Positions 5,355 through 21,125 of a DNA stretch of 64,000 bases are shown here, piece after piece. The stretch is taken from assembly GCA_019694165.1 (NCBI GenBank), contig JAIBCL010000001.1, forward strand, positions 558,001 through 622,000, given 5' to 3'. The notes beneath the pieces were generated by a model that saw only the letters and a list, made by a program, of their open reading frames with translations, ran no database searches and was not told the DNA's origin. The number at the start of each line of letters is the position of its first letter. The first letter of the stretch is position 1. Made by a program: the position numbers and the translations under genes. The DNA is from Verrucomicrobiaceae bacterium (GTDB taxonomy: Bacteria; Verrucomicrobiota; Verrucomicrobiia; Verrucomicrobiales; Verrucomicrobiaceae).

Positions 5355-7178
5355 ATGTGCGGCATCGCGGGATATTGGGGCGCAAAGCCCCGTAGCAGGG
5401 AGCAGATCGACCGCACGCTCGATCTCATGCGCAATCGCGGCCCCGATCACCGCGACTCATGCTCCTTCGATCTAGGCGCAGCCCACGCCGACCTGCTGCA
5501 CACGCGCCTGAGCATCATCGACCTCGATCCTCGCTCGCACCAGCCCTTCACCATCGGCGACACCACCGTGATCTTTAACGGCGAGATCTACAACTACGTC
5601 GAACTGCGCCAGGAGCTGGAGAAGCGCGGCATCGCCCTGCGCACCGCGTCCGACACCGAGGCACTGCTGCACTACTACCGCCTCTTCGGCGAAAAGTGCG
5701 TCGAGCACTTCGAAGGCATGTGGGCCTTCGCCATCTGCGATGCGGCCAAAGGCACTCTGTTTCTTTCTCGTGATCGCTTCGGTGAGAAGCCGCTCTACTT
5801 CGTCCGCACCGCCGACGGCTTTGCCTTCGGCTCCGAGGTTAAATTCCTCCGCGCTCTATCCGGTGAACACCTCCGCGTCAACCGCCGGCACGTCCTTCGC
5901 AATCTCGTCCACGGCTACAAGTCGCTCTACAAAACGAGCGAGACTTGGTTTGTAGGTGTCGAGGAACTCCGCGCCGGCCACAGCATGACGCTCAACACGA
6001 ACGGCGAGGCGCGCACCGCCCGCTGGTGGCAGCCGCAGTGCCGCATCGACGGCTCAATGTCGCTCGACGACGCCATCTCCGGCTCGCGGCATCATTTGCT
6101 CGAGAGCGTGCGCCTGCGCCTGCGCTCCGATGTGCCGCTGGCCTTCTGCCTCAGCGGCGGCGTGGATTCCGCCGCACTCGTCTCCATCGCGGCCAAGCAG
6201 TTCAACTGCCGCCTGGAGACTTTCTCAATCATCGACACCGACGAGCGCTACAACGAGGAGGACAACATCATGGCCACCGTGCGCGACACCGGCTGCGCGC
6301 ACAACCTCCTGCGCATTCCTCAGGAGAACGTCATCGAGCGCCTCACGCGGCTCATCACCTACCACGACGCGCCCATCGCCACCATCACCTACTACGTCCA
6401 CTCCCTCATTTCGCAGGCCGTGCACGACAAAGGCTACCGCGTCGCGTTCTCCGGCACCTCCGCCGATGAGCTGTTCACCGGCTACTACGATCACTTCCTG
6501 CTCCATCTCAACGAAGTCCGGAACGATCCCGGCTACGCCCGCTACGAGGCAGACTGGCGCACGCACATCGACGCCTTCGTGCGCAATCCCATCCTCAAAA
6601 ACCCGCATCTCTACCGCGACAACCCCGGTTTCCGCGACCACGTCTTCGACGGCGCGGACGAGATTCGCGAATACCTCGCACGCGATTTTTCCGAGCCGTT
6701 CACCGAGGAGCGCTTCACCACGAGCCTGCTGCGCAATCGCATGATGAACGAGCTTTTCCACGAAGCCACGCCCGTCATCCTGCACGAGGACGATCTCAAC
6801 TCGATGCTCTACTCCGTCGAGAACCGCAGTCCGTATCTCGACTCGCGCCTCTTCGACTTCGCCTTCTCGATCCCTTCACGCCACCTCATCCACGACGGCT
6901 ACGGCAAGTACATCCTGCGCCAGGCGATGCAGGGCATCCTCAACGACCAAGTGCGCCTCGACCGCAAAAAGAAAGGCTTCAACGCCTCGATCAATTCCAT
7001 GGTGAATTTCAGCGACCCTGCGGTGCGCGACTACTTGCTCGATCCAAAGGCCGCCGTGTTCGATCTCATCAAGCGAGATGCCATCGCGCGCCTCTTCGAT
7101 CTCTCGCCGGTGCCGAATCACCTCAGCAAGTTCCTCTTCAACTTCATCAACGCCCGCATCTTCCTCGAGCAGAACTGA
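5355..7178 (+). CDS. asnB: Asparagine synthase (glutamine-hydrolysing) family amidotransferase
   Basis: This 607-residue protein has the N-terminal Ntn glutaminase domain starting with the processed Cys2 (MCGIAG). FNGEIYNYVELR and RDRFGEKPLY are intact. A C-terminal ATP-pyrophosphatase synthetase domain carries SGGVDS at residues 267-272. All expected catalytic elements are present, so it should couple glutamine hydrolysis to amide formation. In glycan clusters such proteins can amidate sugar carboxylates rather than aspartate. It starts two bases after the NeuB stop and lies three bases before a WbpG-type sugar amidotransferase, so a glycan substrate is likely. It is one of four AsnB-type proteins in the window. 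Confidence 0.9.
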   Translation: MCGIAGYWGAKPRSREQIDRTLDLMRNRGPDHRDSCSFDLGAAHADLLHTRLSIIDLDPRSHQPFTIGDTTVIFNGEIYNYVELRQELEKRGIALRTASDTEALLHYYRLFGEKCVEHFEGMWAFAICDAAKGTLFLSRDRFGEKPLYFVRTADGFAFGSEVKFLRALSGEHLRVNRRHVLRNLVHGYKSLYKTSETWFVGVEELRAGHSMTLNTNGEARTARWWQPQCRIDGSMSLDDAISGSRHHLLESVRLRLRSDVPLAFCLSGGVDSAALVSIAAKQFNCRLETFSIIDTDERYNEEDNIMATVRDTGCAHNLLRIPQENVIERLTRLITYHDAPIATITYYVHSLISQAVHDKGYRVAFSGTSADELFTGYYDHFLLHLNEVRNDPGYARYEADWRTHIDAFVRNPILKNPHLYRDNPGFRDHVFDGADEIREYLARDFSEPFTEERFTTSLLRNRMMNELFHEATPVILHEDDLNSMLYSVENRSPYLDSRLFDFAFSIPSRHLIHDGYGKYILRQAMQGILNDQVRLDRKKKGFNASINSMVNFSDPAVRDYLLDPKAAVFDLIKRDAIARLFDLSPVPNHLSKFLFNFINARIFLEQN

Positions 7179-7181
7179 GCC

Positions 7182-8300
7182 ATGCGCTACTGCACCCGCT
7201 GCATCCTTCCAGACACCCGCCCCGGCCTCGTGCTCGATGCCGAGGGCGTCTGCAGTGCGTGCCGGAACTTCGAGCTGCGCAAGACCATCGACTGGGCCTC
7301 ACGCGCAAAGGCGTTCGATGGCGTGATCGCCAACGCGAAGGCCCGCTCGAAGGGCTACGACTGCCTCATCCCCGTCAGTGGCGGCAAGGACAGCACCTGG
7401 CAGACGATAGTTTGTTTGGAAAAAGGACTGAACCCGCTATGTGTCACCTGGAAAACGCCCGCGCGCACCGAGATTGGCCGCCAAAACCTCGAAAACCTAA
7501 TTTCGCTCGGCGTCGATCATGTCGACTACCAAGTCAGCCCCGCGGTGGAGAAAAAATTCATGCTCGATGCGCTCAAGCGCTTCGGCTCCACGGCGATCCC
7601 GATGCACCTCGCGCTCTTCAACATTCCGCTCAAGATCGCCGCGCGCTTCGACATCCCGCTCATCATCTGGGGAGAGAACTCCGCTTTTGAATACGGCGAT
7701 CCCGGCGAAGAGCGCCTCGGCTTCAAGCTCGACTCCAACTGGCTTCGGAAATACGGCGTCACCCACGGCACCACCGCCGAGGACTGGATAGGCGACCGCC
7801 TCACGCGCAAGGAACTCACGCCCTACTTCGGACCCGATCCTGATGAACTCGACCGCCAGGGCGTGCTCGCCGTCTTCCTCGGCTACTACCTGCCCTGGGA
7901 CGTACGCACCAGCTACGACGCCGCGCGCGCACGCGGCTTCCGCGCCGACACCAGCGGCGCGCGCACCGGAATCTACGACTTTGCCGACATCGACGACGAT
8001 TTCATTTCGCTGCACCACTACTTGAAGTGGTACAAATTCGGCTTCCCGCGCAGCTTCGACAATCTCTCCCTGGAAATCCGCCACGGCCGCCTCACGCGCG
8101 ACGAAGCCATCACCATCGCCCGCCAGCACGGCGACGGCCTCCCGCAGAAGGACATCGAGAAATTCTGCGCCTTTGCCGGCATCAGCACGGGTGAGTTTTT
8201 CGACATCATCGAAAGGTACCGCAACCCGGACGTCTGGCAGCGCGACAGCCGCGGCTGGCGCATCCGTGACTTCCTCATCCACGACTGGAACTGGCGCTGA
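7182..8300 (+). CDS. N-acetyl sugar amidotransferase (WbpG/PseA family)
   Basis: This 372-residue protein has an N-terminal four-cysteine metal site (C4, C7, C24, C27) followed by a PP-loop ATP-pyrophosphatase motif SGGKDS at residues 66-71. That is the arrangement of the WbpG/PseA/LegA family. These enzymes convert an N-acetyl group of a sugar to an acetamidino group, using ammonia and ATP. PseA of Campylobacter acts on pseudaminic acid, and WbpG of Pseudomonas acts with HisH2/HisF2 on a mannuronic-acid derivative. This copy stands alone, without adjacent HisH/HisF, but next to asnB and downstream of neuB. That fits acetamidino modification of a nonulosonate. A second copy is fused to HisF 7 kb downstream. 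Confidence 0.9.
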   Translation: MRYCTRCILPDTRPGLVLDAEGVCSACRNFELRKTIDWASRAKAFDGVIANAKARSKGYDCLIPVSGGKDSTWQTIVCLEKGLNPLCVTWKTPARTEIGRQNLENLISLGVDHVDYQVSPAVEKKFMLDALKRFGSTAIPMHLALFNIPLKIAARFDIPLIIWGENSAFEYGDPGEERLGFKLDSNWLRKYGVTHGTTAEDWIGDRLTRKELTPYFGPDPDELDRQGVLAVFLGYYLPWDVRTSYDAARARGFRADTSGARTGIYDFADIDDDFISLHHYLKWYKFGFPRSFDNLSLEIRHGRLTRDEAITIARQHGDGLPQKDIEKFCAFAGISTGEFFDIIERYRNPDVWQRDSRGWRIRDFLIHDWNWR

Positions 8301-8301
8301 C

Positions 8302-8682
8302 ATGAAATTCGACGAAAAAAATCCACCACGCACCTTCCCCGTCGGCAATGCGCGCAAGTTCGACATGAAGGACTGCGGCACTCTGCGCCTCGATGCCGAT
8401 GAACAAATCACGCTCACCACCGAGAGCGGCGGCGAATACGACGTGGCGCGCAAGGACTGGGGCTTCTACGCCACGCCGTCGCTCAACGGGCGCCTGCCTT
8501 CTTTCGGCCTGCGCGGCGTGCTCATCAAGAACCGAGGCACCGGACGCTATTTCGTTTTCCTTGTCGAGCGCGGCAGGGACGCCGAGTTCGAAGACTACCT
8601 TCGCGTCGAAAACCTGGCCGTCATCGCGTGGCTGGACAGCGACGAAGCGCTCAAGAAACTGGAGGCCGCCGTTTCCACATGA
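8302..8682 (+). CDS. Small conserved protein of glycan loci, function unknown
   Basis: This is a 126-residue soluble protein without signal peptide or membrane segment. ATG 8302 follows the amidotransferase stop by one base; an upstream in-frame extension would run through that gene. It contains a Lys/Asp-rich start, a Y-D-V-x-R-K-D-W-G-F-Y-A-T-P-S core (residues 47-61) and a beta-rich C-terminus ending in a helix. From memory, small proteins with this core recur beside WbpG-like amidotransferases in polysaccharide clusters; I cannot verify that here. Its ATGA overlap with the next methyltransferase and its position suggest an accessory subunit or modulator of the amidotransferase. No catalytic motif is visible. 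Confidence 0.8.
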   Translation: MKFDEKNPPRTFPVGNARKFDMKDCGTLRLDADEQITLTTESGGEYDVARKDWGFYATPSLNGRLPSFGLRGVLIKNRGTGRYFVFLVERGRDAEFEDYLRVENLAVIAWLDSDEALKKLEAAVST

Positions 8683-9500
8683 GGCCCGCCGCGTGTCCAT
8701 GCTGCCTCGGGAGCGCCCTGACTCTCGCGCACACCTACCGCGAGCGGCCGGAGGGCGAGACAGCGTTCACCCGCCCTGCTGGCGAAGCCTATCACCGCGA
8801 GTTGTGGCGCTGCGAAACGTGCGGCCACTTCCTCTCCACTCATGCCATGTCGCTCGGCGCACTCTATGACGCGGGCTATGTGGACTCGACCTACGGCGGC
8901 CTCGACGGCATCCGCAAAAACTACGAGCGCATCATGGCGCTCGATCCCGCGAAGTCTGACAACGCGGGCCGCGTCGAGCGCGTGATCGCCTTCGCGGAGC
9001 AGCACTTCGGCGCCCGGCCGCTGCGCGTGCTGGACATCGGCTCTGGCCTCGGCGTTTTCCTCGGCAAGCTCAAGCGGTGCAAACCCGGGTGGACGCTCAC
9101 GGCACTGGAACCAGACCCGCGCTTCGCCCAACACGCGCGCGAGACGCTCAGCGTCGAGGCCGTGGCTGAGGACTACATGAAGCTGTCGTGGAAGCGCGAG
9201 TTCGATCTCATCACGCTCAACAAGGTGCTGGAACACATCGAGGAGCCGCGTGCGATGCTGGACAAGGTGCGCGCCGACCTCGCACCCGGAGGCATCGCCT
9301 ACATCGAGCTGCCTGACGGCGACGCCGCCTGCAGTGAAGGCTTTGGCCGCGAGGAATTCTTCATCGAGCACCACCACGTCTTCTCGATGGCATCCATGGA
9401 GCTTCTCCTCCACCGCCACGGCCTGCGCACTCTTGCCCTCGAGCGCCTGCGCGAGCCGAGCACGAAATTCACCCTGCGCTGCTTTGCGGAATCAATCTGA
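8679..9500 (+). CDS. SAM-dependent class I methyltransferase with N-terminal zinc-ribbon-like cysteines
   Basis: This 273-residue protein begins with a CPCC pair and a second CETC pair about 45 residues later, forming a probable zinc ribbon. A Rossmann methyltransferase follows: motif I VLDIGSGLG, acidic ALEPD, and a post-motif LNKVLEHIEEP that matches the Methyltransf_11/23-type E-H-x-x-x-P. Such zinc-ribbon methyltransferases are common in O-antigen loci and may O- or C-methylate sugars or lipid-linked intermediates. The ATG overlaps the stop of the small upstream gene. It is the first of a series of eight methyltransferases in the window. Substrate unknown. Confidence 0.88.
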   Translation: MRPAACPCCLGSALTLAHTYRERPEGETAFTRPAGEAYHRELWRCETCGHFLSTHAMSLGALYDAGYVDSTYGGLDGIRKNYERIMALDPAKSDNAGRVERVIAFAEQHFGARPLRVLDIGSGLGVFLGKLKRCKPGWTLTALEPDPRFAQHARETLSVEAVAEDYMKLSWKREFDLITLNKVLEHIEEPRAMLDKVRADLAPGGIAYIELPDGDAACSEGFGREEFFIEHHHVFSMASMELLLHRHGLRTLALERLREPSTKFTLRCFAESI

Positions 9501-9519
9501 ATCGCGGACACTGACTTGC

Positions 9520-10626
9520 ATGAGCCACTGGAATCGAACCGCCCGGCTGGATGCCGCTGACACACGTCAGATCGAGACGTGGACGCTCACGGCCGAAGAT
9601 GGCGCCAGACGGAACTTCGAGATCGATGTGAAGACGGGCAAGCCGCTCGATGTGATGAGCTTGAAAAACTCCAGTCTCGCCGACACGCGCGAGTACGCGG
9701 ACATGCTGGCCGCGCGCGCGCGCAAGCTCTACGGCTCCGGCCTGCGGCTGGTGGAAATGACCTCGTGTACCTGCTGCGGCAGGCCGCTGACGGATGCGGG
9801 GGAGTGCCTGCGAATCTTTGACGTGCCGTATCAGCGCTGCACCGGCTGCGGCCATGTGATGGTGACGCGACGGCCTGCGGGAGAGGATCTGGATTTTGAG
9901 GAGTCCGCCGAAGTGAGCCAGACCTACGTCGATCCCGCCACATGCGAAGTACGGCTGGCGCAGGTCATCGCGCCGAAGATGGACTGGGTGGACGGCGTGT
10001 TTGCGAAGTTGCGCGGCAGAAAAACGACGACTGTGATCGACGTGGGCGCGGGTGGAGGACATTTCGTCGAAGGCGCACGGCGCGCGGGCGCGACGGCGGC
10101 CGGCTTCGAGCTGAGCAAGGCGTCGCGTGCTTTCGCAAAGGCGGCCTTCGGCCTCGATCTTCGCAGCGACGATTTTCTAGCCGCGAATCTGGAGCCGGTG
10201 GACGTGATCACGATGTGGGGCCTGTTGGAGTATGTGCAGGAGCCGCGGCGCTTTCTCGACAAGGCTCGCGCAGTTCTGCAAAAGGAAGCCGGGATGCTCG
10301 TCGTCGAGGTGCCGCGCTTCGATGCGCTCGGCACCGCGGCGCAGGCGGTGAATCCATTCCATGTCGCGCGCCACATGGATCCTACGACGCACATCAACTG
10401 CTTCTCCGACGCGTCGCTCGCCACCGCGCTCGTGAGTTCCGGCTTCGCGCCGGTGGCGGCGTGGTATTTCGGAATGGATGCCTATGAACTCCTGGTGCAG
10501 TGCGCTCTGCGCGGCGGTGATGAGAAGGCGCTGTCCGCGACAGCAGAAATGATCCCCGCACTGCAATCGGCCCTGGACGCCGCGCGTTGCTGCGATGACA
10601 TCATCGTAGCCGCCGTGCCTGTTTGA
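9520..10626 (+). CDS. SAM-dependent class I methyltransferase with zinc-ribbon-like N-terminus
   Basis: This 368-residue protein starts at ATG 9520, 19 bases after the previous stop; the open frame further upstream overlaps the preceding gene and was not used. CTCCG and CTGCG pairs (about residues 84-109) form a likely zinc ribbon. Methyltransferase motif I is VIDVGAGGGHF, followed by FELSK and a MWGLLEYVQEP post-motif. The first 80 residues are an extra N-terminal region not shared with the neighbouring methyltransferase. The C-terminal 100 residues resemble the tails of sugar methyltransferases. Role in glycan methylation is inferred from position. It ends next to a sulfotransferase start. 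Confidence 0.85.
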   Translation: MSHWNRTARLDAADTRQIETWTLTAEDGARRNFEIDVKTGKPLDVMSLKNSSLADTREYADMLAARARKLYGSGLRLVEMTSCTCCGRPLTDAGECLRIFDVPYQRCTGCGHVMVTRRPAGEDLDFEESAEVSQTYVDPATCEVRLAQVIAPKMDWVDGVFAKLRGRKTTTVIDVGAGGGHFVEGARRAGATAAGFELSKASRAFAKAAFGLDLRSDDFLAANLEPVDVITMWGLLEYVQEPRRFLDKARAVLQKEAGMLVVEVPRFDALGTAAQAVNPFHVARHMDPTTHINCFSDASLATALVSSGFAPVAAWYFGMDAYELLVQCALRGGDEKALSATAEMIPALQSALDAARCCDDIIVAAVPV

Positions 10627-10637
10627 AGATCCGCGAC

Positions 10638-11786
10638 ATGACCGGTCCGCTTCCATTCTTCATCTTCGGCGTCGCGCGTTCGGGTACAAATCTCGTGGCA
10701 CGGATGCTCGACGCGCATCCTCATGCCGCAGTCGCGCTCGATCCGCTGCTGCCGTTGTTTCGCTCCTGGAGGAATCAGGTCGCCGAGCAGTCGGCGCACA
10801 CGCTCACGGGTGCGTGGAATCCGCAGTCATCGCTTCAGGACTACTATTTCTCCCGGGATGGCGCGGCCCTGTTGCGGATGATTCTCGACGCTGATCCGGC
10901 ACAGGCACTGCCGCCGGGCGGGCTGGAGCACCTGCAGCCTGCCGTGGTGGACCGCGCCGCGCTGGAGTCTCCGAACCTCGCCGCGGCGTTTGCAAAGTGG
11001 ACCGGCTCGACATGGGGGGAGCTTCTCGCGAGCACCGTGCGCATCATCAGCGACGGCAAGGCCGTCCATGCGGCAGGTGTGAAGGAGGTGTGGACAGTCG
11101 AGTTCATCCCCGCCATCCGCCGCGCGCTGCCGGATGCACGCTTCATCATCCTGCACCGCGACCCACGCGCCGTGGCAGCTTCGCAAATGGCGATGGCGCG
11201 CAAGGACCCGACCCAGGCGGCGCACTCGATCAGCTACATGCGGCACTGGCGCAAGCATGTGACGCTGGCGCGCCTGTTCAGCAGCGATTCATCGCTTGGA
11301 GACCAAGTCCTCGAAGTACGATACGAGGACATTTTGCTGTCACCGAAGCAGCATGCGGAGAATCTCGCCGGTTTCCTCGGCCTTGATTTCGATCCCGCGA
11401 TGCTCGCGCCGGGCAAGGAACAGGGCTGGGAGAGCAACAGCAGTTTCACCTCGGCCAAAGGCGGAGTCGATGCCCAGGCGGGCGAGCGCTGGCGCGGCAA
11501 GCTGCCTGCGCACGCGGTCGCGACGGTTGAGTTTCATTGCGGCATAGAGATGCGGAATCTCGGCTACGAGCCGACGCGCGCTGAGCCGGGGCGGCTCGAT
11601 GCCGAAGTGCTGCGGGGCATCGCCGAATCCAATGCCGCACCCGGCAAATGGCGCTCGGACTCGGGCGACGAAGCCGCCGACCTCGCGTGGGAATGCCTGC
11701 GCTGGCAGCTTGCCGGGCCTGCCGCCGTCGATGTCCCGAGTGACCTGATGCGGCGTTGCTTTCTCCAGCCGGAACTTCCAAACTAG
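10638..11786 (+). CDS. Sulfotransferase-family protein
   Basis: This protein of about 382 residues has a PAPS 5'-phosphosulfate-binding loop near its start, FIFGVARSGTNLV. The 3'-phosphate-binding element is FIILHRDPRAVAASQ. These are the two signatures of the P-loop sulfotransferase fold. It would move sulfate from PAPS to a hydroxyl or amine of a glycan. ATG 10638 is preferred; an in-frame TTG at 10623 overlaps the previous stop (TTGA) and would add five residues. The C-terminal 100 residues are poorly conserved. No PAPS-synthesis genes are in the window, so that supply must come from elsewhere. Presence in this run suggests the glycan is sulfated. Confidence 0.85.
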   Translation: MTGPLPFFIFGVARSGTNLVARMLDAHPHAAVALDPLLPLFRSWRNQVAEQSAHTLTGAWNPQSSLQDYYFSRDGAALLRMILDADPAQALPPGGLEHLQPAVVDRAALESPNLAAAFAKWTGSTWGELLASTVRIISDGKAVHAAGVKEVWTVEFIPAIRRALPDARFIILHRDPRAVAASQMAMARKDPTQAAHSISYMRHWRKHVTLARLFSSDSSLGDQVLEVRYEDILLSPKQHAENLAGFLGLDFDPAMLAPGKEQGWESNSSFTSAKGGVDAQAGERWRGKLPAHAVATVEFHCGIEMRNLGYEPTRAEPGRLDAEVLRGIAESNAAPGKWRSDSGDEAADLAWECLRWQLAGPAAVDVPSDLMRRCFLQPELPN

Positions 11787-11804
11787 CGCATATCTTTCCA
11801 CTCC

Positions 11805-12560
11805 ATGAGCACCACTTTCAGCTACGAAGAATACGTCACGGACAAACCCTTCCTCGACGCCTACAACGACTACCAGCGGCGCTATGCGTCCACGATCCGC
11901 GAAAGCGACCGCGTGCTGTTGAAGATGGTCTCAGACTGGATCGGGCAAAATCAGGGATCCACCGCACGACCGCGCCTCCTCGACATCGGCTGCTCGACGG
12001 GGAACTTCCTGCTCCACCTCAAGCGCCTCGCGGGAGACAAGCTCGCGATGACCGGTGGAGACTTGGCTGTATCGTCGCTGGATTCATGCCGGGCGAATCC
12101 CGAACTGGCTGGCATCGACTTTCAGGTCATGGACATCACGGAGCTGCCGGCGGAGGCGTTCGACATCGTGGTGGTGAACGCGGTGCTCTACATGTTCACC
12201 GACGAGCAATACCAAGCGGCGCTGCGCGGGCTGCGTCGTGCGCTGAGGCCAGGCGGCGCGGTGATGGTGTTCGATTTCGCGCACGAGTTTGCGCAGGACA
12301 TCGAGATCATCGAGAAGACGAGCAGTCATCCGAACGGACTGCGCCTCAGCTTCCGACCGATGGAGAAAATATCGCGAAGCACCGCCGAGGCCGGATTCTC
12401 GAAGGCAGAGTTCCAGCCCTTCGTGCTGCCGATCGATCTCCCCCGCCCCGCCGACAATGCGGAGATCATCACCTACACGGTGAAGAACGAGCAGGGCGCG
12501 CGCATGGCCTTCCGTGGCACGCTGTACCAGCCCTGGTGCCACATGATTTATCGCGCCTGA
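11805..12560 (+). CDS. SAM-dependent class I methyltransferase
   Basis: This 251-residue protein has motif I LLDIGCSTGNFL near residues 64-75, an acidic GGDLA segment after strand two, and a DIVVVNAVLYMF motif. It closes with the usual L-R-P-G-G beta hairpin. It lacks the zinc ribbon of its neighbours. An aromatic, acidic N-terminal segment (SYEEYVTDKPFLDAYNDYQ) precedes the fold. The spacing to the sulfotransferase (18 bases) and to the next gene (a few bases) puts it in the same transcript. The methyl acceptor is unknown; a sugar or a sugar-linked amino group is the contextual guess. Confidence 0.86.
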   Translation: MSTTFSYEEYVTDKPFLDAYNDYQRRYASTIRESDRVLLKMVSDWIGQNQGSTARPRLLDIGCSTGNFLLHLKRLAGDKLAMTGGDLAVSSLDSCRANPELAGIDFQVMDITELPAEAFDIVVVNAVLYMFTDEQYQAALRGLRRALRPGGAVMVFDFAHEFAQDIEIIEKTSSHPNGLRLSFRPMEKISRSTAEAGFSKAEFQPFVLPIDLPRPADNAEIITYTVKNEQGARMAFRGTLYQPWCHMIYRA

Positions 12561-12564
12561 TGTG

Positions 12565-13905
12565 ATGATGCCGCTGCTCCGTGATCTCTGCGCACCACGC
12601 ACGGCAGTCGTCGCCGACGGCAATGACGCGCTCTTTGCGCGGCTGGGCCGGGAGCTTCCGCTGGAAATCTTCCGCTTCGATTCAGGCGACTCGTTTAATG
12701 GCTGGATCGTGCCCGACAACTGGCGGGTGAAGCGCGCGCAGATTTTTCGCGATGGGAAACTGGTGTTCGACGGCGCAGGCCAGGCGCTCGCGGTGGGCTA
12801 TTACTCGAAGTCCTTCAGCGGCGACCTCGACTGGGAGGACCTGAAGCCGAAGCTGGTGACCAATCCCGCGCTGCCGGAGGCGACGATGTTTCACTGCATG
12901 TGGCAGTACCGCCCGTGGGATGCGGACTGGCGGCTGTGTGTGCCGCACACGGTTTATCAGACACTCGGACCGGGGCGCTATCGCGTCGAGTTGGAGACCG
13001 AGCGCGAACCGGGCGAGATGCTCGTGGCGCACTCGCACAAGGCCGGACACTCTGAGAAGACCATCGTCTTCAACGCGCACACCTGTCATCCGCACATGGC
13101 CAACGACGGCTTCGCGGGCGTGGCGATTTTTGTGAAGCTCATGCAGTGGCTCGCGACGCAGGACACCTTTTACAGCTACCGACTCGTCGCCGCACCGGAG
13201 CACATTGGCACGGTGTTTTACCTTCGCGATTTGCCGGTGGATGACGTGAACCGCCTCGTTTCAGGCTTCTTTCAGGAGATGCCCGGCACGCACGGCGCGA
13301 TCAAGGCGACATCGACTTTTCTCGGCGGACAAAAGCTCGACCTCGCCTTTGCCAACGCGCTGCGACATCACGCACGCAGGTACGAGCTGGTGCCGTGGCG
13401 CAAGGGCGCGGGCAACGACGAGACGGTGTGGGAAGCTCCGGGCTACGAGGTGCCTTTCGTCGAGGTGACGCGGTGCGAGGATCAGTTCGCGCCGTTTCGC
13501 GAATACCACTCCAGCCTCGACACGCCCGAATTGATGGACGCGGCGCAGATGGACGAGATGCTGCTCGTGTTGAAGAAAGTCGTCGATTCGCTCGAAAACG
13601 ACGCGGTGATTCACCGTCGCTTCGACGGACTCATCTGCTTGTCGAACCCGCAATACGACCTCTACATGGAGCGTCCCGATCCCGCCGTGGTGAAGGACCT
13701 CGATGCCGACGCAGAGAAGTGGGGCCATTTGCTCGATTGTTTGTTCCGCTACTTCGACGGCGGCAAGACCATTCTCGAGATCGCGCAGAAGCACGATCTG
13801 CCTTTCGATCGACTTCACCGGTACCTGAAGCGTTTTGAGGAAAAAGGACTTGTCACGCTGCAACGAAGCGAGATTGAGAGAGTGCTTCCGAAACGAGCAG
13901 CATGA
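12565..13905 (+). CDS. DUF4910/DUF2172 aminopeptidase-like protein with C-terminal winged helix
   Basis: This protein of about 446 residues resembles the M28-like aminopeptidase-domain proteins annotated DUF2172/DUF4910 with a C-terminal HTH domain. Probable zinc ligands are visible in NAHTCHPHMANDGFAG (His and Asp), the PEHIGT segment and the late REYHSSLDTP segment, in the order used by co-catalytic zinc peptidases. The last 80 residues form a helical segment (ILEIAQKHDLPFDRLHRYLKRF) followed by a strand, a winged-helix-like end. It has no signal peptide, so it acts in the cytoplasm. Such proteins recur in polysaccharide loci; a role as sugar amidohydrolase or peptidase-like processing enzyme is open. 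GTG 12562, ATG 12565 and ATG 12568 are alternative starts. Confidence 0.82.
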   Translation: MMPLLRDLCAPRTAVVADGNDALFARLGRELPLEIFRFDSGDSFNGWIVPDNWRVKRAQIFRDGKLVFDGAGQALAVGYYSKSFSGDLDWEDLKPKLVTNPALPEATMFHCMWQYRPWDADWRLCVPHTVYQTLGPGRYRVELETEREPGEMLVAHSHKAGHSEKTIVFNAHTCHPHMANDGFAGVAIFVKLMQWLATQDTFYSYRLVAAPEHIGTVFYLRDLPVDDVNRLVSGFFQEMPGTHGAIKATSTFLGGQKLDLAFANALRHHARRYELVPWRKGAGNDETVWEAPGYEVPFVEVTRCEDQFAPFREYHSSLDTPELMDAAQMDEMLLVLKKVVDSLENDAVIHRRFDGLICLSNPQYDLYMERPDPAVVKDLDADAEKWGHLLDCLFRYFDGGKTILEIAQKHDLPFDRLHRYLKRFEEKGLVTLQRSEIERVLPKRAA

Positions 13906-14531
13906 TCACCATCATCGACAGCGGCATTGCCAACATAGCCTCCGTGACCTCGGCTTTCCGACGCCTCGGCGCCGGCAATTGCGTGACGCGGCAGCCCTGC
14001 GATCTCGAAAGTGCGCATGCCATCGTGCTGCCAGGCGTGGGCGCCTTTGCCGATGGCATGGAAAGCCTGCGCAAGTGCGCGCTCATCGAGCCGGTCAGGC
14101 GGGCTGCCGTGCGCGGCACGCCGATCCTCGGCATCTGCCTCGGGATGCAGTTGCTGGCGGATGCAAGCGAGGAGTTCGGCGAGCACGCGGGACTCGGCCT
14201 CGTGCCGGGACGCGTGGTGCAATTGAGTCCCGGAGCCGCTGGCGACCGCGTGCCAAACATCGGCTGGTGTGACGTGGAGCCCCAAGCGGCATCGCGCGTC
14301 TTCGCCGGCACTGCTCCCGGCACGGCGTTCTACTTCGTCCACAGCTTCCACTTCCGCTGTGCTGACGAGAAAGACGTCAGCGCGAGCATCAAGTTCGGCG
14401 GCGCATCCGTGGCGGTCGCCGTGGAGAGAGGAAACGTGTTCGGCGTGCAGTTCCACCCGGAGAAGAGCCAGGATGCCGGTCTCGGCGTGCTGGAGAATTT
14501 TGTCCGCTTCGCAAAGGAGGTGAACGCATGA
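13902..14531 (+). CDS. hisH: HisH-type glutamine amidotransferase (glycan-pathway paralogue)
   Basis: This 209-residue class I glutaminase has the full triad: C79 in GICLGMQLL, and H185 and E187 in VQFHPEKSQ. PGVGAF marks the oxyanion region. It hydrolyses glutamine and passes ammonia to a HisF partner. It overlaps the aminopeptidase-like gene upstream (ATGA) and the HisF-WbpG fusion downstream (ATGA). No other histidine gene is present. In Pseudomonas aeruginosa the analogous trio HisH2/HisF2/WbpG makes an acetamidino sugar. I therefore read this as the ammonia source for the fused sugar amidotransferase, not a histidine biosynthesis enzyme. Confidence 0.9.
   Translation: MITIIDSGIANIASVTSAFRRLGAGNCVTRQPCDLESAHAIVLPGVGAFADGMESLRKCALIEPVRRAAVRGTPILGICLGMQLLADASEEFGEHAGLGLVPGRVVQLSPGAAGDRVPNIGWCDVEPQAASRVFAGTAPGTAFYFVHSFHFRCADEKDVSASIKFGGASVAVAVERGNVFGVQFHPEKSQDAGLGVLENFVRFAKEVNA
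14514..14523 (+). promoter_or_regulatory. Strong Shine-Dalgarno sequence for the HisF-WbpG fusion gene
   Basis: AAGGAGGTGA lies inside the end of hisH, four bases before ATG 14528. It is nearly a full anti-Shine-Dalgarno complement. Most genes in this window have no obvious ribosome site, so it stands out and fixes the start of the fusion gene. Confidence 0.75.
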
Positions 14532-16618
14532 GCACGGCGGGACGCAGCTTCGGCGCGGCGCATCCGCGTTTGATTCCCGTTCTGCTGCTGAAGCACGGCA
14601 TGATCGTGCGCAGCCAGCTTTTCAAGGTGCATCAGGTCATTGGCAATCCGATGAGCTCCGTGGAGCGCTACTCGCACTGGAACGTGGATGAACTCGTCGT
14701 GCTCGACATCAGCCGCGGCGAGGAAGGCCACGACCTGCGTCGTGACGACCTCCAGCAGCAATACGCGGGCGACACCGTGATCGACGTTCTCCGCGAAATC
14801 GCCAGCGTGTGCTTCATGCCGCTGACCTTCGGCGGCCGCATCCGTACACTGCGCGACATCGAGGCACGCCTCGCCGCAGGCGCGGACAAAGTCACGCTGA
14901 ACACCGCGGCGCTGGATGATCCCGCCTTTGTGCAGGCGGCGGCGCGGCGTTTTGGCTCGCAGTGCATTGTCGCTTCAATCGACGCGCGCAGGCTCCCCGA
15001 TGGCCGTCACGAGGTCTGCGCCGACGGCGCGCGACGCGCGACGGGCCGCGACCCGGCGGCGTGGGCATGTGAGGTTGAGTCGCTGGGCGCTGGAGAAATC
15101 TTCCTGAACTCCATCGACCGTGACGGTTCGGGCCACGGCTACGATCTCGAGCTGGTGCGCAGCGTGACGTCAGCGGTAAACATACCCGTCATCGCCTGCG
15201 GCGGCGTGGGACGCTACGATCACTTCCCTGCCGCTATTCTCGAAGGCGGAGCGTCCGCCGCTTCGGCGGCGAATATTTTTCATTTCTTCGAGCTGAGCTA
15301 CTCGCATGGCAAGCAGGCCTGCCTCGATGCCGGCGTGCCAATGCGTCCGCTCGGCCTCGGCTCGCGCCATCTGCCGCGCGAGCCGGAGTATGATCGCATG
15401 CGGGAAGATGCGCGCATCGCCGAGCGGCTGCGCCAGGCGAAAGAACAAGACTATGTCGCCGCGCGCCCTGAGTCTGCTTCGCGCAGGCGTCGCATCACCT
15501 GGTGCAAGGAATGTGTTTACCCCTCCATCTCCGCCGCGCCGATGGATTACGACGACAAGGGCGTCTGCACCGGCTGCCAGATGGCGCGGGTGAAGACGAG
15601 CATCGCACGCTCCGAGTGGGACCGCCGCCGCGGCCTGCTCAAGGATTTGATCGAGAAGTACCGTTGCCGCGACGGCAGCAGGCACGACGTGGTGATTGCG
15701 GTGTCCGGCGGCAAGGATTCGTATTTCCAGACGCATGTGCTCAAGGAGGAGTTCGGCCTCAATCCGCTGCTCGTGACCTATGACGGCAACAACTGGACCG
15801 ACGTCGGCTGGCGCAACATGATCCGCATGAGAGAGGTGTTCGATGTCGATCACGTCATCGTGCGCCCGTCGGTGGAGACGCTGAAGAAACTCAATCGCCT
15901 CGCTCTCATCATCATGGGCGACATGAACTGGCACGGCCACGTCGGCATCATGACCACGCCGATGAAGGTGGCAGTGCAAAACCGCATCCCGCTCGTGTTT
16001 TACGGCGAGCACGGCTACCTCGACCTGTGCGGGCAGTTCTCGATGGATGACTTTCCCGAGGTCACCTACCGTGACCGTCTCGAGCACTTCGCGCGCGGCT
16101 ATGAGTGGACGTATTTTGAGGGCCGCGAGGGACTCACCAGCCAGCAGCTCGCGATCTGGAAATACCCGACCGACCAGGAACTCTTCGATCTCGACCTGCG
16201 CGGCATTTTCCTTGGCAACTACGTGCATTGGGAGGCCAATGAACATATCAAACTCGTCACGGAGCGTTACGGCTTCGAGATGAACAACAAGCCTTTCGAC
16301 CGCACCTACCGCAAGATGTCGAACCTCGATGACATGCACGAGAACGGCGCGCACGACTATTTGAAGTTCATCAAGTTCGGGTATGGCCGAGCGACCGACC
16401 ACACCTGCAAGGACATCCGCGCCGGGCTGATGACGCGCGAGAAGGCCATCGAGCTGGTGAACCACTACGATCCCGTCAAACCCAGTGACCTGCGCCGCTG
16501 GCTCGATTACACCGGCATGACGGAAGACGAGTTCGACCGCATCGCCGACACCTTCCGTGATCCGCGCGTTTGGTGGCGCGAGGGCGGCGCGTGGAAGCGG
16601 CAGAACATTCTCGACTGA
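14528..16618 (+). CDS. HisF-WbpG fusion: ammonia-channel cyclase-like domain joined to N-acetyl sugar amidotransferase
   Basis: This 696-residue protein joins two enzymes usually encoded separately. Residues 1 to about 270 are a HisF-type TIM barrel: IASIDARR (D152), NSIDRDG and ACGGVGRYDHF align with HisF landmarks. A linker of about 50 residues follows. Residues about 320-696 are a WbpG-type amidotransferase with metal-site cysteines C326, C329, C347 and C350 and the PP-loop SGGKDS at 393-398. In HisF the first strand carries catalytic Asp (LDVKDG in Thermotoga); here it reads LLLKHG, so cyclase activity is unlikely. The barrel probably docks HisH and channels ammonia straight to the amidotransferase, which would convert a sugar N-acetyl to an acetamidino group. 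The start has a strong ribosome site. Confidence 0.93.
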   Translation: MSTAGRSFGAAHPRLIPVLLLKHGMIVRSQLFKVHQVIGNPMSSVERYSHWNVDELVVLDISRGEEGHDLRRDDLQQQYAGDTVIDVLREIASVCFMPLTFGGRIRTLRDIEARLAAGADKVTLNTAALDDPAFVQAAARRFGSQCIVASIDARRLPDGRHEVCADGARRATGRDPAAWACEVESLGAGEIFLNSIDRDGSGHGYDLELVRSVTSAVNIPVIACGGVGRYDHFPAAILEGGASAASAANIFHFFELSYSHGKQACLDAGVPMRPLGLGSRHLPREPEYDRMREDARIAERLRQAKEQDYVAARPESASRRRRITWCKECVYPSISAAPMDYDDKGVCTGCQMARVKTSIARSEWDRRRGLLKDLIEKYRCRDGSRHDVVIAVSGGKDSYFQTHVLKEEFGLNPLLVTYDGNNWTDVGWRNMIRMREVFDVDHVIVRPSVETLKKLNRLALIIMGDMNWHGHVGIMTTPMKVAVQNRIPLVFYGEHGYLDLCGQFSMDDFPEVTYRDRLEHFARGYEWTYFEGREGLTSQQLAIWKYPTDQELFDLDLRGIFLGNYVHWEANEHIKLVTERYGFEMNNKPFDRTYRKMSNLDDMHENGAHDYLKFIKFGYGRATDHTCKDIRAGLMTREKAIELVNHYDPVKPSDLRRWLDYTGMTEDEFDRIADTFRDPRVWWREGGAWKRQNILD

Positions 16619-16624
16619 AATGAC

Positions 16625-17662
16625 ATGAGCGACACCGCAACCGACCGGCTGCAGAAGCAGAAACTCAGCGAAAAAGAAATCTGTCCCGACGACTTGCTCA
16701 AGGGACAGGAGGAAGCCTTCGCGCGTGACGTGGCGCGCTTGCAGCAGCGGCTGGGCGAGTTCGTCAGCGAGCCATGCCCGGCGTGCGGCGCGGACACCGG
16801 CGCGCCCGCGTTTGAGAAGTGGCGCTTTCACTACACCACCTGTGCCGGCTGCGGCACCATTTACATGAAGCCGCGCCCCTCGCCCGCGGTGATGCAGAGC
16901 TACTACTCGAACTCCGAGAACTACGCCTACTGGGGCAAATACATCTTCCCCGCCTCCGAAGCGGCGCGGAAGGAAAAAATCCACCGACCGCGCCACGAAA
17001 AGATCGTCGAGATGACGCAGCGCTTCGGCGCGGGCCGCGGGCTTCTGCTGGAGGTCGGGCCGGGCTTCGGCACCTTCTGCGCGGTGGCGACGGAGGAAAA
17101 GAAATTCCAGCGAGTCGTCGGGATCGAGCCCACGCCCGAGATGGCGCAGGCATGCCGCGAGCGCGGAGCGGAAGTGATCGAGAAGCGCATCGAAGACATA
17201 GCCGATGCCGACGGGCTCACGGGCGCGGACGTGCTCGTGGCCTTCGAGGTCATCGAGCACCTCTACGCGCCGCGGAAATTCGTCGAGCAATGCGCGCGGC
17301 TGTTGAGGCCCGGCGGACTGCTCGTGCTCACCTGCCCGAACGGCCAGGGCTTCGACATCGCCGAACTGGGAGCCGAGTCGCTCGCCGTCGATCCCGAGCA
17401 TGTGAACCTCTTCAATCCCCAGTCGCTCTCGCAGCTCGCGGCATCGTGCGGCTTTGAGGTGAAGGAAGCCACCACGCCTGGCAGACTCGACGCCGAGTTT
17501 GTGCGCGAAGCTGTGCTCAAGGGAAAACACGATGTCTCGAAACAGCCATTTTTGAAGCGGGTGCTCATTGACGAATGGGAACGCCTCGGCTGGCCCTTCC
17601 AACAATTCCTCGCCGACCACGGCCTCTCCGCCCACCTGTGGATCGTGGCGCGGAAGAAATGA
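16625..17662 (+). CDS. SAM-dependent class I methyltransferase with zinc-ribbon-like N-terminus
   Basis: This 345-residue protein has an N-terminal helix-rich stretch of about 45 residues, then CPACG and CAGCG pairs about 28 residues apart, a probable zinc ribbon. The methyltransferase core follows with motif I LLEVGPGFGTF and the post-motif VAFEVIEHLYAP. HVNLFNPQSL is typical of the Methyltransf_23 group in O-antigen loci. It lies six bases after the fusion gene, and its TGA overlaps the next ATG. The methylated substrate is unknown. The family is often next to sugar aminotransferases and amidotransferases, as here. Confidence 0.87.
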   Translation: MSDTATDRLQKQKLSEKEICPDDLLKGQEEAFARDVARLQQRLGEFVSEPCPACGADTGAPAFEKWRFHYTTCAGCGTIYMKPRPSPAVMQSYYSNSENYAYWGKYIFPASEAARKEKIHRPRHEKIVEMTQRFGAGRGLLLEVGPGFGTFCAVATEEKKFQRVVGIEPTPEMAQACRERGAEVIEKRIEDIADADGLTGADVLVAFEVIEHLYAPRKFVEQCARLLRPGGLLVLTCPNGQGFDIAELGAESLAVDPEHVNLFNPQSLSQLAASCGFEVKEATTPGRLDAEFVREAVLKGKHDVSKQPFLKRVLIDEWERLGWPFQQFLADHGLSAHLWIVARKK

Positions 17663-18573
17663 CGATCATGACTCCGATCGATCCAGAACAGAGCGTCAAA
17701 ACGTGCTACTCGACCTGGGGCACGAGCTATTACGACGACTACTACACCGACAAGGCGCCGTATCCGCCCGTGCATCGCGACCTGATACGGCGCGAGCTGC
17801 AGAAGCACGCGCCGAAAAGCTTGCTCGATGCCGGTTGCGGCCCCGCATCCATTCTCCGCGACCTCGGCGATCTCGGCATCGACCTCTACGGCTTCGACCT
17901 CACGCCGGAGATGATCGCCGAGTGCAAGCGCGTCATGACGGAGCGCGGACATCCAGTCGAGCGCTTCTGGCAGGGCAGCGTCACGAACCGCGAGCACTTT
18001 CGCGCACCAACCGGAGGCCCGTCCGTGTTCGATGCTGCCATCTGCGTCGGCGTGCTGCCGCACATTCCGGCGGAGCAAGACAGCGTCGTCTTCAAGAACC
18101 TGCATGAGAGCGTGCGCCCCGGAGCGATGGTGATGGTCGAGGCGCGCAACATGCTTTTCTCCCTCTTCACGCTGAACCGTTACTCGCAGCAGTTCTTCGC
18201 CGACGAGCTGCTGCCGCTCGCAGCCCTGCGCGAGATCGCGGGCGAGGCGAAAACAGAGTCCGTTCTCGACGGCGTGAAGGCGCGCTTCCGCATGGATGTG
18301 CCGCCGGTCCGCAAAGGCAAGGAAGGCGAGCCCGGCTACGACGAGGTGCTCTCGCGCACGCACAATCCGCTCGTCGCACGCGAGCAGTTTGCCGCGGCGG
18401 GCTTCAAGGATGTCGAAGTGCTCTTCTACCATTTTCACGCCTTCCCGCCGATGATGCAGGACGAGGCGCCCGATGCGTTCCGGCGCTTGAGCGTGCAGAT
18501 GGAATCCAACCCGAGGGACTGGCGCGGCTACTTCATGGCCTCGGCCTTCTTCCTCAAAGGCATCGCCGCATGA
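17659..18573 (+). CDS. SAM-dependent class I methyltransferase
   Basis: This 304-residue protein has motif I LLDAGCGPASIL, acidic FDLTP, and a late AICVGVLPHIP post-motif. It has no zinc ribbon. The N-terminus CYSTWGTSYYDDYYTD resembles the start of small-molecule methyltransferases of the Methyltransf_25/11 type. ATG 17659 forms an ATGA overlap with the upstream stop; ATG 17668 is an alternative three codons in. The C-terminal segment (residues about 180-290) is long for the family and may cover the active site. Ends in an ATGA overlap with yet another methyltransferase, so the three are coupled. Substrate unknown. Confidence 0.85.
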   Translation: MTIMTPIDPEQSVKTCYSTWGTSYYDDYYTDKAPYPPVHRDLIRRELQKHAPKSLLDAGCGPASILRDLGDLGIDLYGFDLTPEMIAECKRVMTERGHPVERFWQGSVTNREHFRAPTGGPSVFDAAICVGVLPHIPAEQDSVVFKNLHESVRPGAMVMVEARNMLFSLFTLNRYSQQFFADELLPLAALREIAGEAKTESVLDGVKARFRMDVPPVRKGKEGEPGYDEVLSRTHNPLVAREQFAAAGFKDVEVLFYHFHAFPPMMQDEAPDAFRRLSVQMESNPRDWRGYFMASAFFLKGIAA

Positions 18574-19250
18574 TCGCGAGGACCGGCTGGCTCAACTACT
18601 GCATCTGGGAGCACAGCGAGACGGTGAAGCAGCTCTACGAGCGCCGCGCTGCCCTGCAGGAGGAAGAAATGACCTGCGCCGCGCAAGCTGCCGAGTGGCT
18701 GGCCGGGCGCGTACAGCCTGGCGACACGCTGCTCGATGCCGGATGTGGCAGCGGATACTTTTTTCATTCGCTGGCAAAGCGAAACATTCCAGCCGCCTAC
18801 TTCGGCATCGACGCCGCGCCGTCGCTCGTCGAGATCGGCCGCCGCATCCTGCCGCGCTTCGGTCTGCCGGAAGAGAATCTTCAGGTGCTGCGCTTCGACG
18901 ATCTCGACGGTGCGGTGGATCACGTCGTGTGCATGAACGTGCTGTCGAACCTCGACAACTACCACCGTCCGCTGGAGCGCTTCTTGAAAATGGCGCGCAA
19001 GACCGTGGTGCTGCGCGAGTCGTGCAAGGAGCAGGGAGAGTACCACTACGTCGTGGACAAGTACCTCGACGACGGCGTGCCGTTGAAGGTGCATGTGAAT
19101 GCCTACCCGCTGGCCGAAGTGATGGATTTCATCCGATCCTGCGGATTCGATGTGACGTGCGAAATGGATCGCCGAACCCAGGACCAGCCGGAGAACGTCA
19201 TCGACCACCCGCACTATTGGAAGTTTCTCATGGCCGTGAGGCGCGCTTGA
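18570..19250 (+). CDS. SAM-dependent class I methyltransferase
   Basis: This 226-residue protein has motif I LLDAGCGSGYFF and FGIDAAPS after strand two. DHVVCMNVLSNLDN is the post-motif. The fold is compact and has no zinc ribbon. A notable E-S-C-K-E-Q-G-E-Y-H-Y segment follows the methyltransferase core. It is the last of a coupled trio of methyltransferases (16625-19250) and ends 42 bases before an AsnB-like gene. An N-, O- or C-methyl acceptor cannot be decided. Confidence 0.84.
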   Translation: MIARTGWLNYCIWEHSETVKQLYERRAALQEEEMTCAAQAAEWLAGRVQPGDTLLDAGCGSGYFFHSLAKRNIPAAYFGIDAAPSLVEIGRRILPRFGLPEENLQVLRFDDLDGAVDHVVCMNVLSNLDNYHRPLERFLKMARKTVVLRESCKEQGEYHYVVDKYLDDGVPLKVHVNAYPLAEVMDFIRSCGFDVTCEMDRRTQDQPENVIDHPHYWKFLMAVRRA

Positions 19251-19292: not shown

Positions 19293-21125
19293 ATGTCCCG
19301 CATCTCTGGAATCACCCACCCACAGCCGCCGACCGAGGCGGCGAAGTTCTTCGCGTTCGGCACGCCGGCTGGCGGGTCCGTCCATCGAATCAAACGCGAG
19401 GGTGCCGGTCTTGCGTGGGCCGGTTTTGGCGCACCTCGCGCGGCGACGCGCGGATCGTTTGGCGTTGTTCTCGACGGCATCATCTACAACGCATCCGAAC
19501 TGGCCGCCGGCAAACCGGACGCCGAGGTCATTCTTGATCTGTTCGAGCGCTTCGGTTTCACCGGAATGCTCGAACGCCTCAACGGGGACTTTGCGCTGGC
19601 GTTGTTCGATGAGAAGGAGCAGACACTCTGGCTGGCGCGGGATCGCTTTGGTGCGAAGCCGCTTTACTACACCGCGTCGTCTCCGTGGGGATTTGCCTTC
19701 GCTTCGCGCTGCGGTGCGCTGCTCGCCTTGCCTGGCGTGTCGTCGGCACCGGTCGCGCAATACGTCGCGCTGATGGCGGCGAGCCATTACCGGCACTTCG
19801 ACAACGAGCCGGAGAAGAGTCCTTACAAAGATATCGCCCAGCTTCCCGCCGCACACTGGCTGCGCTTCAAGGGCGGACAGGTGACCACCGGCACCTACTG
19901 GCAGTTGCACGACCTGCCAGACTGGGATGAGCCGGCGGAAACTCTCGCGCTGCGTTATCGCGACCTGCTGCTCGACGCCACGCGGCTGCGCATCGCCCGG
20001 TGCGGCAAGGCGGCCTTCACATTGTCGGGCGGCATGGATTCATCGTCGGTGCTGAGTTCTGCGGTCAAGGTCACGGGGCAGAAGCAGCACGCTGTTTCTT
20101 CGGTGTACGAGGACAAGACATTCGACGAATCGGAGGACATTCAGACCATCCTCTCTGAAACCGTGAGCCAGTGGCATCAGGTCAATGTGTCCGATCCCGA
20201 CGTGTTCTCGCTCGTCGCGAAGATGGTGGCGGCACACGATGAACCGGTCGCCACTGCGACGTGGCTCAGCCATTTCCTCGTCGTCCGGCAGGCGTCGGAG
20301 TCAGGGTTCACACATCTGTTCGGCGGCCTCGGCGGCGATGAATTGAATGCGGGCGAATATGAGCATTTCTTTTTTTTCTTCGCGGATCTCAAGCAAGCCG
20401 GGCAGTTCGACAAGCTCCGTCACGAGGTGAACAAGTGGGTCGAGTACCACGACCATCCCATCCACCGCAAGAGCTACGCCGTGATGGAGGGGATGCTGCT
20501 GCGATCGTGCGACCTTGCCATCCCCGGACGCTGCCTGGCCGACCGCGCGCGGATGACGCGCTATGCCGACGCGCTGAATCCCGGCTTCTTTGACCTGCGC
20601 GCATTCGAACCGCGGATGCCGCACACCTTCACGAGCTACCTGAAGACGCGGACGTATCAGGACATCTTCCTCGAGACCTCGCCTTGCTGTCTGCGCGCAC
20701 AGGACCGGCAGGGCATGGCGCATGGCATCGAGCATGTGATGCCGTTCTTCGACCACCGGCTGGTCGAGTTCATGTTCCGCGTGCCCGGCACGCTGAAGGT
20801 GCGCGATGGTGTGACGAAGACTCTGTTGCGCGAGGCGATGAAAGGCATCGTGCCCGACACCACGCGAACGCGGATCAAGAAGACCGGTTGGAATGCACCC
20901 GGACATCTGTGGTTCTCCGGCAAAGGGCGCGAGAAGCTGCTGGACCTTGTGCATTCGGCGGCTTTTCGGTCACGCGGCATCTATGATGTCGCCCGCGTCG
21001 AGGAATTGATCGAGGAGCACGAGCAAATCGTGAGCCAGTCTCTGGTGAAGGAAAACCACATGATGTTCCTCTGGCAGCTCGTGAATCTGGAGATGTGGCT
21101 GGGCTCGTCGATTCCGCAGAGATGA
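19293..21125 (+). CDS. AsnB-like protein lacking the glutaminase cysteine
   Basis: This 610-residue protein has the two-domain asparagine-synthetase layout. The N-terminal half keeps VVLDGIIYNASEL, LNGDFALALFD and ARDRFGAKPLYY of the Ntn fold. The synthetase half has SGGMDSSS at residues 245-252 and GGLGGDELN. It starts MSRISGI instead of MCGI, so the Cys2 nucleophile is absent, as in beta-lactam synthetases and other glutamine-independent relatives. It may therefore use free ammonia, another amine or an intramolecular nucleophile to form an amide. It closes the 21-kb forward run and faces a reverse-strand gene 18 bases on. No upstream in-frame Cys-containing start was found close by. Confidence 0.88.
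   Translation: MSRISGITHPQPPTEAAKFFAFGTPAGGSVHRIKREGAGLAWAGFGAPRAATRGSFGVVLDGIIYNASELAAGKPDAEVILDLFERFGFTGMLERLNGDFALALFDEKEQTLWLARDRFGAKPLYYTASSPWGFAFASRCGALLALPGVSSAPVAQYVALMAASHYRHFDNEPEKSPYKDIAQLPAAHWLRFKGGQVTTGTYWQLHDLPDWDEPAETLALRYRDLLLDATRLRIARCGKAAFTLSGGMDSSSVLSSAVKVTGQKQHAVSSVYEDKTFDESEDIQTILSETVSQWHQVNVSDPDVFSLVAKMVAAHDEPVATATWLSHFLVVRQASESGFTHLFGGLGGDELNAGEYEHFFFFFADLKQAGQFDKLRHEVNKWVEYHDHPIHRKSYAVMEGMLLRSCDLAIPGRCLADRARMTRYADALNPGFFDLRAFEPRMPHTFTSYLKTRTYQDIFLETSPCCLRAQDRQGMAHGIEHVMPFFDHRLVEFMFRVPGTLKVRDGVTKTLLREAMKGIVPDTTRTRIKKTGWNAPGHLWFSGKGREKLLDLVHSAAFRSRGIYDVARVEELIEEHEQIVSQSLVKENHMMFLWQLVNLEMWLGSSIPQR

Follow-up and report, generated by a model that had tools for sequence, protein, structure and literature searches.

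The stretch of DNA analysed here (the window, 64,000 nucleotides of contig JAIBCL010000001.1 from a Verrucomicrobiaceae bacterium) encodes a HisH-type glutaminase whose gene overlaps that of a protein joining a HisF-like barrel to a WbuX/WbpG-type N-acetyl-sugar amidotransferase in one chain. From sequence and structural modelling, HisH and the HisF–WbuX fusion probably form a single glutamine-dependent amidotransferase that channels ammonia and amidinates an N-acetylated nonulosonic acid or a precursor of one. The pair represents a fused version of the known three-part HisH/HisF2/WbpG system; it is rare but conserved, and is scattered over several phyla, apparently by horizontal transfer.

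A glutaminase gene overlapping a HisF–WbuX fusion gene

The two genes and their parts are as follows.

13902..14531, + strand: hisH, a HisH-type class I glutaminase subunit of 209 amino acids with the triad Cys79-His185-Glu187
14512..14531, + strand: Shine-Dalgarno sequence AAAGGAGGTGA and ATGA stop/start overlap, in the 3′ end of hisH (read from the sequence)
14528..15328, + strand: HisF-like (βα)8 barrel domain, residues about 10–267
15329..15496, + strand: linker, residues about 268–323, with a predicted helix at 290–306
15497..16618, + strand: WbuX/WbpG-type N-acetyl-sugar amidotransferase domain (TIGR03573, match to 8wex, motifs)

In a hidden Markov model (HMM) scan, HisH scored 204.5 bits against TIGR01855, above the cut-off of 105.4. 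It carries the oxyanion-strand motif PGVG at residue 44, GICLG at 77 (containing Cys79) and FHPEK at 184 (containing His185 and Glu187), and the Cys-His-Glu triad is invariant across 13 aligned HisH proteins. The HisH stop codon (14529–14531) and the ATG of the fusion gene (14528–14530) share the four bases ATGA at 14528–14531, with AAAGGAGGTGA lying a few bases 5′ of the ATG. A first-pass annotation of this DNA had noted an intact triad in an overlapping HisH and a strong ribosome site for the fusion gene; both were borne out, the Shine-Dalgarno sequence being as strong as had been claimed. We infer that hisH and the fusion gene are translationally coupled.

The fusion is encoded by a single open reading frame (14528–16618, + strand; 2091 bases, 696 residues), with HMM matches to WbuZ/HisF over residues 13–253 and to WbuX over residues 325–673. 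Its C-terminal domain scored 296.1 bits against TIGR03573 (WbuX; curated cut-off 203.2) and contains a tetracysteine motif (C326/C329/C347/C350) and a PP-loop, SGGKDS, at 393–398. Three arginines of the linker (Arg273, Arg284 and Arg300) are invariant among fusions, and most of the linker has no counterpart in the aligned HisF2 proteins of systems in which the domains are split.

Such a joined frame could in principle arise from sequencing, assembly or a frameshift. The junction, at residues about 275–325, is uninterrupted in all 15 homologous loci, which come from Pseudomonadota, Thermodesulfobacteriota, Actinomycetota and Cyanobacteriota, the last including two uncultured Prochlorococcus assemblies, and are 54–79% identical to the window protein. 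The records include the isolate genome of Rhabdaerophilum calidifontis as well as the uncultured Prochlorococcus assemblies. The scan used one genome per species; because two loci, L023 and L035, gave identical BLAST values and are apparently one sequence under two bin names, 14 loci were aligned, making 15 members with the window protein. Every aligned row crosses the junction, although three end at contig edges, and all 15 members match both WbuX and WbuZ with E-values of 1e-20 or better. HisH lies upstream of the fusion wherever the contig extends far enough, and one further genome has a fused copy at 47% identity. All that speaks for an artefact is that the fusion was found in only 1 of 388 sampled genomes of the host phylum, a count that includes the centre genome, covers a subset and used strict E-value cut-offs that could drop distant cases. 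The same junction being read through in 15 loci rules out an artefact for practical purposes.

L023 and L035 are metagenome-assembled genomes labelled Gammaproteobacterium and Rhodocyclaceae bacterium, with identical match values over the stretch they share; one of them may be mislabelled or mis-binned.

The barrel, its exit face and a proposed mechanism

In imidazole glycerol phosphate (ImGP) synthase, HisH docks on the HisF barrel, and ammonia is tunnelled through that barrel; the residues that form its gate, its HisH interface and its catalytic site are well established, and Asp11 is needed for the cyclisation. We mapped the barrel of the fusion onto HisF-LUCA to follow these positions. The gate residues R5, E46, K99 and E167 correspond to Arg14, Glu55, Lys121 and Glu190 of the fusion and are identical in all fusions covering the positions, as is the HisH-interface residue Asp98 (HisF numbering). 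Asp130 and Asp176 (HisF numbering) are likewise unchanged in every fusion covering them, and the phosphate-binding motifs are partly retained. The cyclase residue Asp11, by contrast, is replaced by Leu20, and leucine occupies this position in all fusions covering it. With Asp11 absent and its TIGR00735 score below the cut-off, the barrel does not qualify as a canonical HisF or ImGP cyclase; the host genome encodes a separate canonical HisF. The earlier description of a HisF barrel and a WbpG-type enzyme, each with its key motifs, thus stands for the identity of both domains and for the WbuX motifs, but not for all of the HisF motifs.

To locate the residues that set the fusions apart, we assigned barrel strands and helices from an AlphaFold2 model. 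Residues invariant among fusions are common in the barrel strands and in the loops on either end, and few lie in the helices. Those that also differ from canonical HisF number 12 in the loops of the exit face (R28, S29, H35, Q36, I38, N40, D69, R71, R72, D73, D74 and N249) and one, W51, in the loops of the HisH face (Fisher p = 0.03, for a small post-hoc count in which the sequences are related and canonical HisF is represented by just two rows). A 13-residue insertion in the β2–α2 loop, containing HDLRRDD, holds 5 of the 12. Most of the exit-face residues are common to split HisF2 proteins as well, indicating that reshaping of the exit face did not depend on fusion; on the aligned sequences, the linker appears as the only part special to the fusion.

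AlphaFold2, run on the fusion with a 28-row alignment, gave a mean predicted local distance difference test score (pLDDT) of 88.8 and a predicted template modelling score (pTM) of 0.89; for a homologue at 55% identity the values were 85.0 and 0.86. A pTM this high would not be expected if domains of about 270 and 370 residues lay arbitrarily with respect to one another, suggesting that their mutual placement is predicted with confidence. The modelled barrel matches HisF structures with Z-scores of about 32–36, and the modelled C-terminal part matches the Legionella pneumophila amidotransferase LpNASAT (8WEX) with a Z-score of 38.5 and a root-mean-square deviation of 2.3 over 350 residues at 30% identity. 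As a rule, barrels of this type finish with a helix whose end is on the HisH side. For the second domain to reach the exit face, the linker therefore has to pass alongside the barrel, and at about 56 residues it is long enough to do so.

From the anatomy of the sequence, its conservation, the gene context and the confidence of the two-domain model, all observed directly, we infer a tunnel, a reaction and a likely substrate. HisH would dock at the N-terminal face of the barrel and hydrolyse glutamine. The ammonia would pass the conserved gate, cross a barrel stripped of its own cyclase chemistry and emerge from the C-terminal face, next to which the fused PP-loop domain would be positioned. That domain would use ATP to adenylate the oxygen of the sugar N-acetyl group, and ammonia would then displace AMP, converting the acetamido into an acetamidino group. 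The activation step is modelled on the ATP-to-AMP mechanism proposed in the 8WEX structure paper (PMC10607449). Direct delivery of ammonia by the barrel, as the first-pass annotation had suggested, thus gains support from the retained gate, the newly fixed exit-face residues and the confident placement of the domains in the model.

Gene neighbourhood, distribution and probable horizontal transfer

The window from its left edge to 21125 forms one cluster of about 19 genes. Besides hisH and the fusion gene it contains:

1..275, + strand: 3′ part of a NeuA-like cytidylyltransferase gene (CTP_transf_3) crossing the left edge of the window; PF02348 match at G000:C22:557769-558275
424..1437, + strand: GFO/IDH/MocA oxidoreductase
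1451..2614, + strand: DegT/PseC-like aminotransferase
2611..3636, + strand: SDR 4,6-dehydratase-like enzyme
3636..4346, + strand: GNAT N-acyltransferase, WecD-like
4340..5353, + strand: NeuB-type nonulosonate synthase with SAF domain, start codon uncertain (PF03102, 193 bits; SAF, PF08666, 37 bits)
5355..7178, + strand: asparagine-synthase-like (AsnB-like) amidotransferase 1
7182..8300, + strand: second, unfused WbuX-type N-acetyl-sugar amidotransferase, 372 amino acids (TIGR03573, 324.2 bits)
8293..8682, + strand: conserved protein of about 128 amino acids, start uncertain
8676..12560, + strand: two methyltransferases, a sulfotransferase (10623–11786) and a third methyltransferase (11805–12560)
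12562..13905, + strand: DUF4910/DUF2172 protein, directly upstream of hisH in many carriers
16625..19250, + strand: three methyltransferases after the fusion gene
19293..21125, + strand: asparagine-synthase-like (AsnB-like) amidotransferase 2

A NeuB synthase with a SAF domain, together with a gene for a CMP-sugar synthetase (PF02348) directly upstream, identifies this as a nonulosonic-acid cluster. The most likely substrate of the fusion is thus an N-acetylated nonulosonic acid, or a precursor, made by the surrounding NeuB cluster. The earlier proposal that the system makes an acetamidino sugar is supported, and the genes around it now point more specifically to a nonulosonic acid. NeuB was found in 11 of 13 carrier genomes, on the same contig as the fusion in some, and is collinear in two carriers. 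The cluster is largely collinear between the host and two proteobacteria: Propionivibrio aalborgensis (L024/L077), where the order of the genes around the fusion is almost unchanged, and R. calidifontis (L026/L074), where a few genes are moved or extra. The Rhabdaerophilum cluster (L026:940-3737) includes a 3′-phosphoadenosine 5′-phosphosulfate (PAPS)-reductase-domain gene and a sulfate-adenylyltransferase/adenosine 5′-phosphosulfate-kinase-like (CysN/CysC-like) gene, consistent with provision of PAPS to the sulfotransferase.

Flagellin glycosylation was considered as a role and rejected: no flagellin gene was detected in the host genome, although control genomes were positive, making a cell-surface polysaccharide or another glycoconjugate more likely than a flagellar glycan as the destination.

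Several further observations concern the cluster. The 128-residue protein had no Pfam or NCBIfam match when a longer frame (8173–8679) was scanned, and reaches up to 79% identity in Propionivibrio. The DUF4910/DUF2172 protein has counterparts at about 70–73% identity in several carriers from other phyla. In the Rhabdaerophilum and Propionivibrio clusters (L059, L060), the homologue of AsnB-like amidotransferase 2 is closely followed by a second NeuB gene; none was noted after AsnB-like amidotransferase 2 in the window. No structured RNA was found in the window at gathering scores.

A search for the joined domain order, which the first-pass annotation had called for, indicated that it is not confined to one clade. 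In counts made as for the host phylum, the fusion occurred in 1 of 200 genomes from the family to which the Propionivibrio carrier belongs, in 2 of 201 sampled around a Prochlorococcus carrier and in 1 of 249 sampled around Rhabdaerophilum. An invention specific to one clade is ruled out by this rare occurrence scattered over several phyla. Three genomes of the host phylum have the split form, with HisH, HisF2 and WbuX as adjacent separate genes about 49–54% identical to the corresponding domains of the fusion. In trees of both domains the split proteins are placed near the fusions. Resolution is poor over much of each tree, and the support is insufficient to choose between a single fusion event and secondary splitting. 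More distant relatives (L054, L056) have one HisH–HisF pair between two WbuX genes.

The window protein is 75–79% identical to copies in other phyla, whereas between the canonical HisF of the host and the HisF of those carriers (G533–G536) identity is only 59–64%, which argues for spread of the cluster by horizontal transfer. The cluster shows no sign of being a compositional island, its G+C content resembling that of its surroundings. Among viral contigs there was no relative, phage records giving HisF-like matches only, and on plasmids HisF and amidotransferase genes are neighbouring but separate, at about 28–35% identity. We found no account of a HisF–WbuX fusion in the open-access literature.

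Alternative readings and known systems

Several observations weigh against ammonia channelling by a HisF2-type barrel. The HisF part scored below the cut-offs of TIGR03572 (WbuZ; 251.5 against 299.7), NF038364 (AglZ-HisF2; 212.4 against 310) and TIGR00735 (canonical HisF; 220.3 against 294.55); we treat it provisionally as a divergent HisF2-like barrel that appears to belong to neither the WbuZ nor the AglZ-HisF2 equivalog. The exit-face signal could come partly from loss of the cyclase site alone. Moreover, the second WbuX (7182–8300) has no HisF of its own, an arrangement also seen in several carriers. Because of this gene, and because HisH is a separate chain, the description of the system as self-contained was overstated.

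The same second WbuX, together with the related genomes in which a single HisH–HisF pair lies between two WbuX genes, would suit an arrangement in which fusion merely co-localises the parts: the barrel would activate and tether HisH, and ammonia would reach the solvent or a local pool serving both WbuX enzymes. We regard this as unlikely, given that the gate is fully conserved, that new invariant residues lie on the exit face and that the model fixes the domain arrangement with confidence. A somewhat stronger competitor, if still an improbable one, keeps the same system and changes the acceptor to an acetamido sugar, such as a 3-acetamido uronic acid or N-acetylfucosamine (FucNAc), as for WbpG/WbuX. 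The known substrates of those enzymes are the diacetamido uronic acid ManNAc3NAcA and FucNAc (PMC10607449), and the GFO oxidoreductase and DegT aminotransferase of the cluster are of types also found in diacetamido-uronate pathways; NeuB and the NeuA-like gene in the same cluster, with NeuB collinear in two carriers, speak against it. That the barrel retains its own chemistry on a phosphorylated or nucleotide substrate, making the protein a bifunctional enzyme and not a conduit joined to a synthase, seems very unlikely: the barrel does keep Asp130 and Asp176, together with portions of the phosphate-binding motifs, but Asp11 is leucine in every fusion covering it and the host has a separate canonical HisF.

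Returning to channelled amidination of a nonulosonic acid, a broader extension can be offered tentatively, and we would not rank it as likely. A horizontally spread cassette with two WbuX-type and two AsnB-type amidotransferases, a sulfotransferase and several methyltransferases may make a heavily decorated nonulosonic acid, with fusion of HisF to only one WbuX dedicating glutamine-derived ammonia to one position and the second WbuX using another nitrogen source.

Collinearity of the cluster between phyla suggests that environmental bacteria, Propionivibrio included, make a nonulosonic acid that has yet to be described and is probably both sulfated and amidinated. In granular sludges, the extracellular matrix is reported to be sialylated and sulfated (PMC10483923).

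The basis on which the ammonia supply of WbpG-type enzymes is known appears to be largely gene neighbourhood, a question that the one paper with a solved structure does not take up. That HisF occurs naturally joined to the acceptor enzyme is an indication that the PP-loop enzyme cooperates with the barrel exit, and a system of two proteins makes a tunnel through a repurposed barrel directly testable. The main reading also draws support from a Sphingomonas colony-morphology screen, in which insertions struck each of three separate genes, those for WbuX, HisF2 and HisH (PMC11340318).

The WbpG/HisH2/HisF2 system of Pseudomonas aeruginosa and the WbuX/WbuY/WbuZ system of Escherichia coli likewise combine a class I glutaminase, a HisF-like barrel and a tetracysteine PP-loop amidotransferase. 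They do so as three proteins acting on ManNAc3NAcA or FucNAc, whereas here HisF and WbuX are one chain whose neighbours point to a nonulosonic acid. LpNASAT shares the fold, PP-loop and tetracysteine motif of the WbuX domain but stands alone without a HisF domain, and the main text of its structure paper makes no mention of HisH, HisF or glutamine (PMC10607449). The PseAm and LegAm pathways of Campylobacter place an amidine on a nonulosonic acid, the product class proposed here (PMC3958885), although the amidinated sugars of Campylobacter decorate flagellin, for which the host genome has no detected gene.

ImGP synthase, as HisH–HisF (1gpw, 1ka9) or yeast HIS7 (1jvn), likewise pairs HisH with a barrel bearing the R5/E46/K99/E167 gate. 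There, however, the barrel is itself the acceptor enzyme, whereas the barrel of the fusion lacks Asp11 and carries a second enzyme beyond its C terminus. Yeast HIS7 joins HisH to HisF; the window fusion joins HisF to the acceptor enzyme.

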